From the NCBI GenBank assembly GCA_024707405.1, contig JANPZU010000008.1:620001-684000 (forward strand): 64,000 nt of DNA, given 5' to 3'. A program made the translations under genes and the position numbers. This document shows, piece after piece, positions 15,856 to 20,209 of this stretch; position 1 is the first letter of the stretch; every line of letters begins with the position of its first letter. The notes under the pieces were generated by a model that saw nothing but the letters and a program-made list of their open reading frames with translations, was not told the origin of the DNA and searched no databases. Origin of the DNA: Luteimonas sp. (lineage in GTDB: Bacteria; Pseudomonadota; Gammaproteobacteria; Xanthomonadales; Xanthomonadaceae).

Positions 15856-17079
15856 TCAGCCCTTCACGCACACCACCTGGCGCAGGGTGTGCACCACTTC
15901 CACCAGGTCGGACTGCGCGGCCATGACCGCGTCGATGTCCTTGTAGGCCGCCGGCGACTCGTCGATCACGCCGGCGTCCTTGCGGCATTCGACGTGCGCC
16001 GTGGCCTCGCGGTGCTGCGACAGCGTGATCTGCTGGCGCGCCGTGGTGCGGCTCATCACGCGGCCGGCACCGTGGCTGCAGCTGTGGAAGCTGTCCCCGT
16101 TGCCCTTGCCGCGCACGATGAAACTCTTCGCGCCCATGCTGCCGGGGATGATCCCCAGTTCGCCGGCACGTGCACTCACCGCACCCTTTCGGGTGACCAG
16201 CAGCTCCTCGCCGCCGTGCGTCTCCTTCTGCACGTAGTTGTGGTGGCAATTGACTGCCATCTTCTCCAACTGGAACTTCGGCAGGCGGTGGCGCAGTTCC
16301 GCGAGCACCCGCGACATCATTGCCTCGCGGTTCTCGCGGGCGTAGTCCTGCGCCCACGACACGGCCTCCACGTAGTCGTCGAACAACGGCTCGCCTTCCA
16401 TGAAGAACGCCAGATCCTTGTCTGGCAGATGGAAGCCGAGCACGCGGTGTTCGAGTTGCTTGCGTGCCTGTTCGATGAAGTAGGTGCCGATCAGGTTGCC
16501 GGTACCGCGCGAGCCACTGTGCAGCATCACCCACACGGCATCGCTCTCGTCGAGGCACAGCTCGATGAAGTGGTTGCCACCGCCCAGCGTGCCGATCTGG
16601 CAGCCGAGCTTGTCGGTGCGCACCTTGCGGTGCTTGGCCTTGATCACGTCCAGCCGCTCGACCAGGCCGGATTGCGCGATGCGCGTGCCGATGCTGTCGG
16701 GCAGCTTCCAGTGCTCGCCGCCGCGGCCGTTGCCGACCGGCACGCTGCGTTCGATGCCCGAGCGAATCTGCGCCAGGCTGTCGGGCAGATCCTTCGCCCG
16801 CAGCGTGGTCCGCACCGCGGCCATGCCGCAGCCGATGTCGACGCCCACCGCGGCCGGGATGATCGCGCCGCGGGTCGGGATCACCGAGCCCACGGTCGCG
16901 CCCTTGCCCAGGTGCACGTCCGGCATCACCGCCACCCACGGCCCGACGAACGGGATCGCCGCGATGTTGCGCAGTTGCTCGTGGGCCTGCGACTCCAGCG
17001 GCACGCCACGCACCCAGCCCTTGATCGGCGTGGTGCTGCCTTCGGCGTGCAACAGTTCGAATTGTGTTTGCATGTTCAT
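15856..17079 (-). CDS. rtcB: RNA-splicing ligase RtcB
   Basis: Joins RNA 3'-phosphate or 2',3'-cyclic phosphate ends to 5'-OH ends, using GTP and Mn; its known cellular targets are cleaved tRNAs and rRNA. The protein is 407 residues, the usual bacterial length. Metal and catalytic motifs are complete: PDVHLGKG, GVDIGCGM (active-site Cys), LGGGNHFIEL, LHSGSRGTGN, NCHHNY and the guanylylation-site motif CSHGAGRVMSR. No rtcA or rtcR gene is present in the window. It lies directly downstream of the slipin gene in one apparent operon. Met 1 (17079) and Met 3 (17073) are both possible starts. Confidence 0.95.
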   Translation of the reverse strand: MNMQTQFELLHAEGSTTPIKGWVRGVPLESQAHEQLRNIAAIPFVGPWVAVMPDVHLGKGATVGSVIPTRGAIIPAAVGVDIGCGMAAVRTTLRAKDLPDSLAQIRSGIERSVPVGNGRGGEHWKLPDSIGTRIAQSGLVERLDVIKAKHRKVRTDKLGCQIGTLGGGNHFIELCLDESDAVWVMLHSGSRGTGNLIGTYFIEQARKQLEHRVLGFHLPDKDLAFFMEGEPLFDDYVEAVSWAQDYARENREAMMSRVLAELRHRLPKFQLEKMAVNCHHNYVQKETHGGEELLVTRKGAVSARAGELGIIPGSMGAKSFIVRGKGNGDSFHSCSHGAGRVMSRTTARQQITLSQHREATAHVECRKDAGVIDESPAAYKDIDAVMAAQSDLVEVVHTLRQVVCVKG

Positions 17080-17130
17080 GTCGTCATTCCATTGAAACCG
17101 GGCGCGGTGATTCCGTCCACCGCGCCTGGC

Positions 17131-17158
17131 GGAGTGAGCCGAGCAAGCCCGGCTCTAC
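17131..17158 (-). repeat. single GTAG-type palindromic repeat at the slipin stop
   Basis: On the minus strand the sequence GTAGAGCCGGGCTTGCTCGGCTC is a single unit of the GTAG-headed palindromic family found elsewhere in the window (24543, 50268, 51922). Its GTAG head supplies the TAG stop codon of the slipin gene. Confidence 0.7.
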
Positions 17159-18276
17159 TTGATCGTCACCAATTGCTTCAGCACGCCATCCAGGCCGCCG
17201 AACACGGTGAGCTTGTCGATCTTCTCGGTGACCTTTTCCAGCGCCTCCAATTCCTTCAGGCGCATCAGCACCGGGGACTCGTCGATCAGCTTCGCGGTGT
17301 TGAGCAGGGAACGCGTCGCGTTCGCCTCCTCGCGCCTGCGGATCACGTTGGCTTGCGCCGTCTTCTCCGCCTGCACCACCCCGTTGAGGATCTCCTTCAT
17401 CTCGCCCGGCAGGATCACGTCCTTCACGCCGACACCCAGCACCTCGATGCCGAGGCCGGTCAACTGGCCACGCACGTACGCGAAGATGTCGGCGTCCAGC
17501 GAGGCCTTGTCGCCCAGCAGTTCGTCCAGCGTCTTGGCGGAGACCGCCTTGCGCAGGCCGTACTGCAGTTCGCGGTAGACGAAGTCGCCGATCTTCGCGA
17601 CCTTGGTCCGCGAAGCCACCACGTCGATGACGCGGGTGCTGGCGGCCAGGTTCACGCGCAGGCTGACCTTGTCACGGGTCAGCAGCTCCTGGCCGGAGAC
17701 TTCCACCGACTGCACGCGCAGGTCGACGACATCGACGGCCACGTTCTTCTGGAAGTTCCAGAAGGCGTAGGCACCCGGTGCCAGCGTGCGCACCAGCTTG
17801 CCGTCGATGTACACCAGGCCTGCGGATTCCGCCGGCACCTCGGCCACGATGGCGAGCTTGGACAACGCGCCGAGCTGGCGCAGCCTGCGCGCGACGGCGG
17901 CATCGACCTCCAGCGAGCCGTCGAGCGCCAGCGTGCGCAGCTCGATGGTCGCCAGTGCGCTCCAGAACAGCTTGCGCGAGCCGGGTGCGAGCACCTGCTC
18001 CAGCTTGCCGTTCTTCAGCACGATGCCGACTTCGTTCTCGCCGATGTCGGCCAGCACGAAGGTTTCGTCGAGTCGCGTGCCGAGGCATGCGACCAGTGCG
18101 TCGATGTCGCTGCCGACGTACTCCGCCGATGCAACGTTGTGCACGCGCACCTCGATCCGACCCAGCGGGTCGAACCAGCGATGGACGCCTGCGCCGAGCA
18201 CGCGCTCGAACCGACGGTTGCGATACACCAGGCCGCGCTCGCCGTCACCGATCACGACCCTCTTGGTCCAGAACAT
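17155..18276 (-). CDS. slipin (SPFH/band-7) family protein with triplicated N-terminal module
   Basis: Protein of 373 residues with an SPFH domain at about 175-330 (VSGQELLTRDKVSLRVN, YRELQYGLRKAVSAKTLDEL, VKDVILPGEMKEIL) and a coiled C-terminus. Unlike usual slipins it has no N-terminal membrane helix. Instead it has three related beta modules: 12-36 (GERGLVYRNRRFERVL), 80-106 (NEVGIVLKNGKLEQVLAPG) and 149-174 (ESAGLVYIDGKLVRTLAPG). SPFH proteins form ring scaffolds at membranes. Its place directly upstream of rtcB suggests a scaffold role in RNA repair, which is inference. An AAGGAG site precedes the start at 18276. Confidence 0.88.
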   Translation of the reverse strand: MFWTKRVVIGDGERGLVYRNRRFERVLGAGVHRWFDPLGRIEVRVHNVASAEYVGSDIDALVACLGTRLDETFVLADIGENEVGIVLKNGKLEQVLAPGSRKLFWSALATIELRTLALDGSLEVDAAVARRLRQLGALSKLAIVAEVPAESAGLVYIDGKLVRTLAPGAYAFWNFQKNVAVDVVDLRVQSVEVSGQELLTRDKVSLRVNLAASTRVIDVVASRTKVAKIGDFVYRELQYGLRKAVSAKTLDELLGDKASLDADIFAYVRGQLTGLGIEVLGVGVKDVILPGEMKEILNGVVQAEKTAQANVIRRREEANATRSLLNTAKLIDESPVLMRLKELEALEKVTEKIDKLTVFGGLDGVLKQLVTIK

Positions 18277-18591
18277 GGTGGTGTTCTCCTTGTTGGCTCT
18301 GGTGGTTCGATCCGTTTGGTTGGCAGCGCCACGGCGGATCGAGTTCCGTGACGATGGATGCCAGCCGCGACAGGCGGCCGGTGGAAAAGGTGGAAACGCC
18401 CGTTGACGAGAACGATGCGGACAACCGGTGCTGTCGGAGGAGGCCCTGCCGCGCGATTTCGATCCGTGGATCGATGTTCGTATGGCAAGCGTCCGCGTCG
18501 AGGACGCGATGTCGGCATCATTCCCGCTGCGATGTGCCGCCACGCATTCCCTCGCATGGAGCCAGCGCGCCGCACCGGGCGTTTCCTGTGC

Positions 18592-18626
18592 GGGACTTGC
18601 GTCCCTGATCCAGATTCACAGTCTGG
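18592..18626 (-). ncRNA. two hairpins following the tRNA-like pair
   Basis: Read on the minus strand: a 5-bp stem with seven-base loop, CCAGA-CTGTGAA-TCTGG (18626-18610), that looks like an isolated anticodon arm, then GGGAC-GCAA-GTCCC (18605-18592), a 5-bp stem with a GNRA tetraloop. They directly follow the Tyr-like element, and its encoded CCA overlaps the first stem. Nothing like this belongs to a normal tRNA transcript end, so they may be part of one structured RNA. Confidence 0.45.
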
Positions 18627-18696
18627 TGTTGGAGCGGGAATCGAACCCGCAACTTCGGATTTACAGTCCGCTGCTCTACCGTTGAGCTATCCAGTG
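18624..18696 (-). tRNA. degenerate tRNA-Tyr-like sequence (anticodon GUA)
   Basis: The minus strand folds as a class I tRNA: D arm GCTC-AACGGTA-GAGC, anticodon loop CTGTAAA (anticodon GTA, Tyr, with U33), a four-base variable region AGTT, and a perfect T arm GCGGG-TTCGATT-CCCGC, ending ACACCA. Two features argue against a working tRNA-Tyr. Bacterial tRNA-Tyr has a long variable arm, and here the acceptor stem has only four pairs (TGGA/TCCA), with the outer three positions mismatched. The first anticodon-stem pair is also a mismatch. It is a tRNA-like RNA or decaying tRNA upstream of slipin-rtcB. Confidence 0.6.
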
Positions 18697-18766
18697 GTGG
18701 ACGAACCGGATTCGAACCGGTGGCCAACGGCATGGTGCCGCTACTCTTCCTCTGAGCTATCGTCCG
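18695..18766 (-). tRNA. degenerate tRNA-Trp-like sequence (anticodon CCA)
   Basis: The minus strand gives a six-pair acceptor stem (GGACGA/TCGTCC) with discriminator A and encoded CCA, D arm GCTC-AGAGGAA-GAGT, anticodon arm AGCGG-CACCATG-CCGTT and T arm ACCGG-TTCGAAT-CCGGT. The centre of the loop reads CCA (Trp), but position 33 is A instead of the invariant U, and the acceptor stem is one pair short. It abuts the Tyr-like element with no spacer, so the two are probably in one transcript. A functional tRNA is unlikely; a tRNA mimic is more likely. Confidence 0.55.
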
Positions 18767-19081
18767 CTCGAGGAACACCGTCTCCCACGCGTCGGCATAC
18801 GCCACGGCAGGGCCGCGCGCACCGGACGGGACGCAAGCCCGTACCGCTGTCGCATGTTCGATCGATGTTCCCCATTGCCGGCTGTCTCCAACCGGCAATC
18901 CGTTTCGCATGCACGCAACCGCCCGCCGCCCGCGTCCGGCATCACGGACGCAGCGTTCCCGCCACTCCAGTGGCAACGCCTCGCAGCTGAAATCCCGATG
19001 TGCAGGCCATCCTGGCCCGGATGCGACGGGATGCGATTGCAACCATGCGTATCTCGTGTATCTCCGTTTGCGAACGCGCAA

Positions 19082-19117
19082 AAACAAAACGCCCCCGGGT
19101 TTGGATCCGAGGGCGTT
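19082..19117 (-). terminator. intrinsic terminator of the 38-codon gene
   Basis: On the minus strand an 11-bp stem, AACGCCCTCGG / CCGGGGGCGTT with one T-G wobble, is followed by TTGTTTTTG. It ends a leftward transcript that would start near 19320. Confidence 0.85.
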
Positions 19118-19123
19118 CGCGTT

Positions 19124-19154
19124 CCTCGGAGATCGGGGTGACCGATCTCCGAGG
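19124..19154. repeat. perfect 13-bp inverted repeat
   Basis: CCTCGGAGATCGG, five-base loop, CCGATCTCCGAGG. It begins six bases beyond the stop of the 38-codon gene and comes just before its terminator. It has no T tract of its own, so it may protect the 3' end of the transcript or bind a protein. Confidence 0.85.
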
Positions 19155-19160
19155 TGGAGA

Positions 19161-19277
19161 TCAGTCGGTCAGGGCCATGCCCTGCAGTCGCGCGCAACCG
19201 TTCCGCAGCGCATACGCGGCCGCATCGCGGTGTTCACGCGACGTGCTGGGCTTGGCGATGTGCAGGAAGGTTTTCAT
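19161..19277 (-). CDS. 38-residue hypothetical protein
   Basis: I do not recognise this protein. It reads MKTFLHIAKPSTSREHRDAA and continues for 18 residues to a TGA; it is basic at the start and has no membrane helix. Most third codon positions are G or C, as in neighbouring genes. It is framed like a real gene: a possible promoter at 19328-19356, a 3' hairpin at 19124-19154 and an intrinsic terminator at 19082-19117. No strong ribosome-binding site is seen. The 123-residue extension to 19532 has poor codon use and is rejected. A non-coding RNA from the same unit is the alternative. Confidence 0.5.
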   Translation of the reverse strand: MKTFLHIAKPSTSREHRDAAAYALRNGCARLQGMALTD

Positions 19278-19327
19278 CGAAAGGGATGTTGCGTCGTTGT
19301 TGTCGCACGCGGCGACGAAGGGCGCGC

Positions 19328-19356
19328 ACGTTACGCGCGTCTTTTGTGGATTGCAA
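19328..19356 (-). promoter_or_regulatory. candidate sigma-70 promoter for the 38-codon gene
   Basis: On the minus strand, -35 TTGCAA and -10 TAACGT are 17 bases apart and preceded by an A-rich stretch (AACAAGCAAAAAAGTGC) like an UP element. The expected start lies about 43 bases before the ATG. The -10 match is weak. Confidence 0.35.
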
Positions 19357-19410
19357 GCACTTTTTTGCTTGTTTTTCCTGAAGCCGACGGGCGGTCGCAT
19401 CCGCACGATT

Positions 19411-19486
19411 GGCCGGGCGGGATTCGAACCGATCGCCTTGACCGGAGTGCATGCGTGCAAAACAGGACGGCGCTTTCCGTGCACGC
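19411..19486 (-). other. possible third tRNA-like remnant
   Basis: On the minus strand GGTTCGAATCCC (19434-19423) is a consensus T loop, followed by CGCCCGGCC. Upstream of it a 7-bp stem GCGTGCA / TGCACGC spans 19486-19453 and contains a TTTTGCA loop. The T stem pairs poorly and no acceptor or D arm can be drawn. It could be a decayed tRNA or chance. Confidence 0.3.
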
Positions 19487-19549
19487 GCTTGAATCCTCCA
19501 GCCGTCGGCGCTGCAATGCCTGCCGAGACCACGCATTGCAGGTTCGTAG

Positions 19550-20209
19550 ATGCCCAGCCCCGTCAAGATCGATTTCGTTTCCGACGTTGTCTGTCCGTGG
19601 TGTGCGGTCGGGCTGTATTCGCTGCTGCATGCAATCGAGCGGATCGGGGACGATCTGCAGGTGGAAATCCATTTCCAGCCATTCGAACTGAATCCGGATC
19701 TGCCGGTCGATGGCGAAGACATCGCCGGCCATCTCCAGCGCAAGTACGGCTTGTCGGCAGAACAACTGCGCGCGAACAGTGCAGCGCTCGTCGAGCGTGC
19801 TGCGGCGGTGGGTTTCAGGATCGACACGGATCGACGCACGCACATCTACAACACCTTCGATGCGCATCGCCTGCTGTCGTGGGCCGGCACGCAGGGACTG
19901 GATGCGCAATTGCGGCTCAAGCAGGCATTGCTGCGTGTCTATCATGGCGAAGGCCGCAATGTATCGGCCGCGACGGTGTTGGCTGCGGTTGCAGTCGAAG
20001 CCGGATTGGATGGCGATCAGGCGACACGCATCCTTGCCTCGGGCAGCCATGGCGATGATGTCCGTGCACTGGAGCGGCTCTATCGCGAGCGCGGTATCAC
20101 GGCGGTGCCGTCGGTGATCTTCAACGATCACCACCTGATCCAGGGCGGCCAACCTGTCGAGGTGTTCGAACAGGCGCTGCGGCAGCTGTCGGGAATCGCT
20201 GCCACGTAG
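19550..20209 (+). CDS. DsbA-family oxidoreductase, FrnE-like
   Basis: Cytoplasmic thioredoxin-fold protein of 219 residues with the active site CPWC at residues 15-18 (VVCPWCAVG). A helical insertion follows, then the cis-Pro region GITAVPSVIFNDHHLIQGGQ near the C-terminus, all typical of the FrnE/2-hydroxychromene isomerase-like branch of DsbA. There is no signal peptide. FrnE proteins act as disulfide isomerases or reductases under oxidative stress; the partner here is unknown. Confidence 0.9.
   Translation: MPSPVKIDFVSDVVCPWCAVGLYSLLHAIERIGDDLQVEIHFQPFELNPDLPVDGEDIAGHLQRKYGLSAEQLRANSAALVERAAAVGFRIDTDRRTHIYNTFDAHRLLSWAGTQGLDAQLRLKQALLRVYHGEGRNVSAATVLAAVAVEAGLDGDQATRILASGSHGDDVRALERLYRERGITAVPSVIFNDHHLIQGGQPVEVFEQALRQLSGIAAT

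Follow-up and report, generated by a model that had tools for sequence, protein, structure and literature searches.

A conserved structured region with two tRNA-like domains upstream of slipin–rtcB in Luteimonas and other Proteobacteria

What precedes the slipin and RNA ligase genes of Luteimonas? We analyzed a 64,000-nt stretch of a Luteimonas sp. genome (assembly GCA_024707405.1, contig JANPZU010000008.1, positions 620,001 to 684,000 of the forward strand; hereafter the window), in which two tRNA-like sequences lie upstream of, and on the same strand as, a slipin–rtcB gene pair. ARAGORN found exactly two tRNA-like genes in the whole 64-kb window, both on the minus strand and arranged head to tail; we number them by order of transcription. 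Sequence comparison with relatives reveals, in front of slipin, a conserved and structured region carrying tRNA-mimic domains, which in many genomes is part of Rtc RNA-repair loci. The main features are:

18696..18766, minus strand: tRNA1 (tRNA-like domain 1), Trp-like, anticodon CCA, 6-bp acceptor; found by ARAGORN and Rfam (45.8 bits)
18625..18696, minus strand: tRNA2 (tRNA-like domain 2), anticodon GTA/GUA, 4-bp acceptor; found by ARAGORN and Rfam (56.7 bits)
17155..18276, minus strand: slipin (SPFH/Band 7), 373 aa; PF01145 (Band_7), E 1.6e-31
15856..17079, minus strand: rtcB RNA ligase, 407 aa; PF01139, E 2.1e-124

The cloverleaf pair ends 349 nt upstream of slipin–rtcB. An original prediction, made from the DNA letters alone, had placed two class I tRNA folds in tandem about 350 bases upstream of these genes, one with a Tyr anticodon and four acceptor pairs and the other with a Trp-like anticodon, A33, and a six-pair acceptor, and our searches recovered this arrangement in full. 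In the window, tRNA2 carries the Tyr-like loop CUGUAAA (anticodon GUA), an acceptor of 4 bp (UGGA/UCCA), and a 4-nt variable region, while tRNA1 has a Trp-like CCA anticodon, A33, a 6-bp acceptor, and a predicted fold in which the anticodon loop is shut down to a CCA triloop; D and T arms are canonical in both. Their scores against RF00005 in cmscan (gathering threshold 29; E 1.4e-6 for tRNA1 and 1.4e-9 for tRNA2) mean that the cloverleaves are not chance folds. Housekeeping tRNA-Trp and class II tRNA-Tyr genes are present elsewhere in the genome. Both units were also said to encode CCA, which is true of the window but is not a conserved feature: in homologue alignments the 3′ end of tRNA1 varies and runs into the start of tRNA2, and the bases after the tRNA2 acceptor vary as well. 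The operon contains the RtcB ligase of an RNA-repair operon, and neither RtcR nor the cyclase RtcA had a match in the Luteimonas genome (92.9% complete). A phage origin was considered and rejected, the slipin having no match at E 1e-10 among 50,697 phage records.

How widespread is this arrangement among related bacteria? Slipin is present in 48 of 149 family genomes. We compared 126 related loci: 46 from family genomes and 80 named loci (the best 80 of 300 relatives, from Pseudoxanthomonas, Luteimonas, Lysobacter, Xanthomonas, Dyella, Rhodanobacter, Frateuria, and some metagenome-assembled genomes [MAGs]), whose species overlap with those of the 46. With a cloverleaf parser, 121 of the 126 loci yielded one or more units upstream of slipin, and 84 yielded two; the five without a parsed unit were L097, L161, and L188, which run into contig ends, and L098 and L106. 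When tried on 30 of the genome's own tRNA loci, the parser left one (L019) without a unit of score 20 or more, and the housekeeping tRNAs that it found have acceptors of 6–7 bp. Rfam, applied to 20 of the slipin loci, called two upstream tRNAs in 16 and one in 4. A same-strand rtcB lies downstream of slipin in 43/46 family loci and 77/80 named loci. Together with 30 of 34 more distant slipin loci described below, these counts bear out the proposal that the tRNA-like sequences belong with slipin–rtcB. Five loci (L064, L066, L076, L084, and L094) have a slipin–rtcB gap of 0.9–1.0 kb, probably with another gene inside. Two loci close to those of the Luteimonas family come from a record titled Planctomycetota MAG (L154, slipin identity 76%), which is probably mis-binned, and from a Proteobacteria MAG (L188, 74%).

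The 121 loci with a unit reduce to 105 unique leaders, in which the architecture of tRNA2 is strikingly stable. Its acceptor consists of 4 contiguous base pairs in 80 of the 105 leaders (7 bp in only 6), and its anticodon loop has 7 nt in 95. Among 48 distinct sequences from named loci with a 9-nt D loop, 99.9% of the alignment cells of the tRNA2 cloverleaf with its 4-bp acceptor are paired, and 45 cells carry changes on both sides of a pair as against 9.0 in shuffled alignments (0/500 shuffles reach 45). Nearly all of these double changes fall in the anticodon stem, with one further pair in the T stem; the T arm is otherwise near-invariant. The D stem and the four inner acceptor pairs never vary, so no compensation is visible there, while outer acceptor positions 1–3 are paired in only 11.8% of cells. 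The expectation that compensatory changes would maintain the T and D arms while acceptor stems decay was thus partly borne out: the anticodon stem and the one T-stem pair do show compensation, and the outer acceptor is indeed unpaired, but the inner acceptor shows no decay. The label "degenerate", as an evolutionary description, does not fit an acceptor kept short so consistently. That the units are pseudogenes—decaying tRNA copies—or chance folds would accord with their non-standard anticodons and short acceptors; it is nevertheless hardly credible, being refuted by the conserved position and covariation across many genera, the co-occurrence of leader and slipin, and the Rfam E-values. tRNA1 and tRNA2 are, on this comparative evidence, conserved structural domains and not decayed tRNA genes.

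Could these domains decode? The 86 most regular tRNA2 sequences—those with a 7-nt loop, five anticodon-stem pairs, and a 5-nt variable region, a subset used for the entropy table, loop tests, and tree that leaves out the window's own tRNA2 (4-nt variable region)—carry 28 different anticodon triplets, including UUA and UCA, with A34 in 12. T-loop positions 54–56 and 58 are invariant in the same set, and A37 is found in 75. On a slipin tree of the 86 leaders the triplet changes at least 56 times (69.7 with shuffled labels), with 38, 30, and 27 changes at positions 34, 35, and 36; the 34 slipin fourfold sites have a mean of 12.6 changes and a maximum of 25. To judge from these alignments, tRNA2 is under no constraint at its anticodon, whereas in a real tRNA no part is more constrained. 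In tRNA1, parsed in 73 leaders, a 4-nt capped anticodon arm appears in 33 and the acceptor has 5–7 pairs in 70. The units thus have the cloverleaf with D/T elbow of a functional tRNA, and lack a 7-bp acceptor and an anticodon identity kept among orthologues. We regard tRNA2 as non-decoding because it has fewer acceptor pairs than a normal tRNA requires and a drifting anticodon, while the elbow, the D and T arms, and the 7-nt loop are kept.

These results bear on whether the units are back-up tRNA genes for translational stress, as in the trn operon of Anabaena, where according to one study the repressor TrcR co-regulates a surplus tRNA operon, rtcB, and slipin, with repression relieved by translational stress (PMC10272220). 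One distant locus, L213, invites that comparison: 13 ARAGORN tRNA genes lie on one strand beside slipin and rtcB (G390:C148, 940–4317), four between a truncated rtcB and slipin and nine behind slipin, and with 6–7 bp acceptors in 9 of its 10 parser-scored units it appears to be a genuine tRNA array, resembling the Anabaena operon in concept. The Anabaena system differs from that of Luteimonas in keeping its 26 tRNA genes on a megaplasmid, away from rtcB and slipin, whereas Luteimonas has two non-decoding mimics adjoining these genes. Short acceptors, the diversity of triplets, and the capped tRNA1 arms all contradict a back-up role, as do the 6–7 bp acceptors of the genome's own parsed housekeeping tRNAs, and we consider it very improbable. 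Processing punctuation, in which RNase P- or RNase Z-type cuts at the cloverleaves would trim the mRNA or stabilize its 5′ end, is somewhat less improbable but still unlikely. Cloverleaves within an mRNA are natural substrates of tRNA processing, and the 5–7 acceptor pairs of tRNA1 would suit it; the 4-bp acceptor of tRNA2, with its outer part unpaired, probably makes a poor RNase P substrate, and punctuation would need neither the kept 7-nt loop nor the covarying anticodon stem.

How far does the conserved region extend? Both blastn and a 42-row alignment (which omits 4 of 46 loci) show conservation reaching far past the cloverleaf pair on both sides. The original prediction caught the cloverleaf pair and missed this larger structured leader, as well as the terminator/antiterminator that stands before it. 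The additional elements of the leader are:

18874..18899, minus strand: E2 hairpin (ATTGCCGGTT..AGCCGGCAAT); RNAalifold on 24 leaders, 7/10 pairs with two-sided changes
18794..18849, minus strand: E3 domain (CAGCGGtaCGGG..CCCGtCCGGTGCGCGCGGCnnTGCCGTGGCGTATGCC); conserved in the 42-row alignment, with a covarying first stem; motif in 43/149 family genomes
18561..18626, minus strand: 3′ structured block (CCAGA..TCTGG hairpin, GGGACGCAAGTCCC, GGAAACGCCC); partly conserved, covarying in 23 leaders

In RNAalifold predictions made without a shuffle control, two-sided changes support 15 of 33 pairs in the upstream part containing E2 and E3 (24 sequences) and 12 of 21 pairs in the 3′ block downstream of tRNA2. 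These alignments hold the window plus 23 (E2/E3) or plus 22 (3′ block) of 55 loci that were chosen by their E3 core, so that the invariance of this core in them is by construction. The E3 pattern, with up to three mismatches, occurs in 43 family genomes, all of them among the 48 slipin-positive ones, and a reversed control pattern in none; since RtcB is present in 66 of the 149, the leader tracks slipin and not RtcB in this family. In L087 an insertion of ~150 nt with inverted-repeat ends (AGAGCGTGTGATGCAC..GTGCATCACACGCTCT), resembling a miniature inverted-repeat transposable element, sits in the apical loop of E3 upstream of slipin and leaves the E3 core intact.

Is the leader a known RNA? 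At gathering thresholds Rfam recognizes the tRNAs alone in the window's leader; sub-threshold matches include the Y RNA YrlA (RF02553) at 30.1 bits, well below its gathering threshold of 69, and we rejected membership in that family. Weak YrlA matches over the cloverleaf pair (26.0–33.5 bits, 7 of them full length) also occur in 9 of 12 homologous loci, with none listed in the other 3. YrlA, as described in PMC7790460, is likewise a tRNA-mimicking RNA encoded in an RtcB repair operon, and the two share T- and D-arm sequence resemblance; Luteimonas differs in having two unpermuted cloverleaves within a long region upstream of slipin, its partner gene. The likeness bears on the chief rival to a cis-acting leader, namely that the region encodes a separate trans-acting, Y RNA-like small RNA serving as a decoy for anticodon nucleases or as a scaffold that brings tRNA-handling enzymes to slipin or RtcB. 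Parsed units located between rtcB and slipin in L208, L213, and L250 would also suit such an RNA. An ordinary tRNA tandem, however, scores 22.1 bits to YrlA, which makes the resemblance largely generic, and in the window our scan detected no terminator in the interval from tRNA2 to slipin. We rate the trans-acting RNA as a real but less likely possibility.

What lies in front of the leader? Farther upstream we found a set of putative control elements:

19316..19366, minus strand: possible promoter block (TTGCa .. TA..gT), partly conserved; blastn match in 9 other upstream regions
19161..19277, minus strand: possible leader open reading frame (ORF) encoding MKTFLHIAKPSTSREHRDAAAYALRNGCARLQGMALTD and a stop; an ORF of 28–60 aa ends near here in 84/87 leaders under permissive criteria
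19128..19150, minus strand: hairpin 2:3 (GGAGATCGG/CCGATCTCC), 270/270 cells paired in 30 leaders; overlaps the antiterminator arm
19107..19129, minus strand: predicted antiterminator 3:4 (CCGAGG with CCTCGG), 188/199 cells paired
19080..19118, minus strand: predicted intrinsic terminator 4:5 with U tract, from a terminator scan (12 pairs); mutually exclusive with 3:4

The terminator 4:5 was the only one found on the operon strand in a scan of 17000–19560, and a sigma70 consensus scan of the same interval found no site. The 42-row alignment shows conserved TTGC and TA..gTgCGC columns in the possible promoter. Of the 105 leaders, 87 match an expression written for the terminator arms. The alignment of the switch holds the window plus 29 of 52 loci matching that expression, and the pairing of the 4:5 basal pairs in 210/210 cells is by construction, because the loci were found by those letters. 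In L177 an A-T pair of hairpin 2:3 is replaced by a compensating G-C. Segments 3 and 4 vary together in 30/30 rows, an additional C in the former being accompanied by a G in the latter (19 with both, 11 with neither), as expected if the 3:4 pairing is real; the rows are related, so these amount to fewer than 30 independent events. The leader ORF, which ends near segment 1, has no clear Shine–Dalgarno sequence (by eye); it has accumulated 153, 156, and 148 changes at codon positions 3, 2, and 1, and codons with a single change are synonymous in 89 cases as against 67.8 expected. Attenuators of the trp/his type combine a leader-peptide ORF, competing hairpins, and a terminator. The Luteimonas leader resembles them in having a possible ORF, competing hairpins, and a terminator that is, as a predicted structure, mutually exclusive with an antiterminator; it differs in that the ORF shows neither a clear coding signal nor, by eye, a run of codons for a single amino acid, and in that segment 1:2 pairing is only partly kept (by eye). 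Ribosome-controlled attenuation in front of the leader is plausible from these predicted structures.

Is the association maintained across the Proteobacteria? Slipin was found at E ≤ 1e-60 in 21 of 369 genomes of a class sample and 23 of 398 of a phylum sample, two samples that overlap each other and also contain family members. Outside the family there were 35 loci; 34 of them were retrieved at length (all but L240, at a contig end), and in 30 of the 34 the parser placed a unit no more than 1.5 kb upstream of slipin. Of the four misses (L218, L222, L224, and L249), L218 and L222 do show cloverleaf-like sequence by eye. The distant loci contain RtcB in 18, RtcR in 10, RtcA in 7, and RlaP in 1 of the 34, with examples confirmed by Pfam; contig ends cut some loci, making these counts lower bounds. 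We also looked for sigma54-like sites in the 10 RtcR loci and in one locus each of Escherichia coli, Citrobacter, and Burkholderia. The best site scores 9–11 of 12 in 13/13 loci and the second best 6–9, without a shuffle control; it lies upstream of the leader–slipin unit in 9 loci and, in L218, L222, L224, and L250, upstream of rtcB, which is followed by the slipin unit. No RtcR is found within the E. coli stretch examined, where the order is leader–slipin–RlaP; at least 80% of this leader–slipin query is held by 1,621 of 5,426 complete genomes. By eye, the E. coli leader retains only an E3-like hairpin and a single T-arm-like one. Some relatives thus share RtcR, RtcA, and sigma54-like sites, as well as RtcB, with the RtcR/sigma54 rtcBA operon of E. 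coli and Pseudomonas aeruginosa, from which the Luteimonas genome differs in having no match to RtcR or RtcA. Another study describes PaFlo8, an SPFH protein of the slipin type encoded in the P. aeruginosa PA14 rtc locus (PMC13086221); the word tRNA does not occur in the main text of that study, and the leader is therefore not described there. We found no description of a slipin-linked leader in the accessible portions of the Creative Commons-licensed literature on RtcB, slipin/SPFH, RlaP, RtcR, and tRNA-like RNAs.

What might the leader do? We favor, at somewhat less than even confidence, a cis-acting 5′ leader of a slipin–rtcB repair operon, with tRNA mimics that have no decoding role and serve instead as bait for, or a sensor of, tRNA damage. 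The identity of the mimics as conserved structural domains of a long leader RNA is well supported. We infer that the leader is transcribed together with slipin–rtcB and that the mimics are recognized as tRNA by damage or repair enzymes, feeding back on the operon. Anticodon nucleases, or the repair enzymes themselves, would engage the tRNA-like domains; cutting, binding, or resealing by RtcB would alter the fate of the downstream slipin–rtcB message; and expression of the repair proteins would thereby follow damage. RtcB joins 2′,3′-cyclic-phosphate and 5′-OH ends, such as those left by many anticodon nucleases. In Luteimonas, which lacks RtcR, the upstream terminator/antiterminator would probably set transcription, perhaps in answer to translation failure, and in other Proteobacteria RtcR and sigma54 would take that role, often before a related leader.

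Several observations weigh against the bait-or-sensor leader. In 17 independent close pairs the tRNA2 triplet diverges at 0.353 per site, the spacer at 0.126, and the fourfold sites of slipin at 0.098; the triplet has changed in 11 pairs. This looked at first like strong evidence of diversifying selection. Positions 34, 35, and 36, however, changed in 7, 5, and 6 pairs, and positions 44, 45, 16–17, 20, and 59 in 7, 8, 6, 11, and 4 (D-loop 16–17 and 20 being short stretches and not single sites); on the tree, T-loop position 59 changes 34 times, comparable to the triplet positions and a further point against such selection. Because other free tRNA2 positions change as often as the triplet, an arms race over the bait is unsupported and we dropped diversifying selection in favor of relaxed constraint only. 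Mimicry of particular own tRNAs was likewise set aside as unsupported: among 58 distinct loops, 5 coincide with one of the genome's 31 housekeeping loops, where column shuffles give 4.4 (46% of shuffles reach the observed count), and the excess over all 86 leaders (13 vs. 8.0, reached by 3% of shuffles) is driven by repeats of CTGTTAA. Nor do the loops appear to pair with the leader in a switch, as the mean longest complementary run is no longer than with swapped loops (5.78 vs. 5.78 upstream, 5.27 vs. 5.30 downstream). RtcB is missing from 16 of the 34 distant slipin loci within the stretch examined. ARAGORN finds nothing in the E. coli or Citrobacter leaders, and Rfam nothing in that of E. 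coli; full cloverleaves therefore seem dispensable there. The E3 pattern is missing from five slipin-positive family genomes out of 48: two where the contig ends, one where 1 nt is inserted, and two whose slipins are divergent. The terminator expression finds no match in 18 of the 105 leaders. Codon positions of the leader ORF diverge equally, leaving it without a clear coding signal, and the RNAalifold structures lack a shuffle control.

A more specific version of the sensor, possible though on balance doubtful, is a molecular fuse, in which a universal tRNA dummy in the leader would have its anticodon-type loop cut by tRNA nucleases and could have it rejoined by the RtcB of the same operon, the message thereby reporting damage that outruns repair. 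In lineages without RtcR, the RNA sensor and the terminator/antiterminator would then replace a protein sensor. Where RtcR is present, which responds to damaged tRNA (PMC7790460), cut leaders could feed it ends resembling tRNA halves. As a leader RNA, the region would offer a concrete RNA partner for RtcB biology and give slipin a testable role, and it bears on the substrates of RtcB repair in bacteria and on the sensing of tRNA damage by cells. Unexpected tRNA annotations beside slipin–rtc loci (surplus Tyr, Trp, Asn, or stop-reading "tRNAs") could be accounted for by it as well.

Further T-arm-like sequences were noticed by eye around the two cloverleaves. Upstream of the possible promoter in the window, at 19416–19437 on the minus strand, lies a T-arm-like remnant (GGCGATCGGTTCGAATCCCGCC) that could be a tRNA fragment. 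An additional T-arm-like stem (e.g., TGCGGTTCGAATCCGC) follows tRNA2 in L207, L208, L209, L215, L222, and L235. These stems behind tRNA2 suggest that the leader may derive from a longer tRNA-like array.
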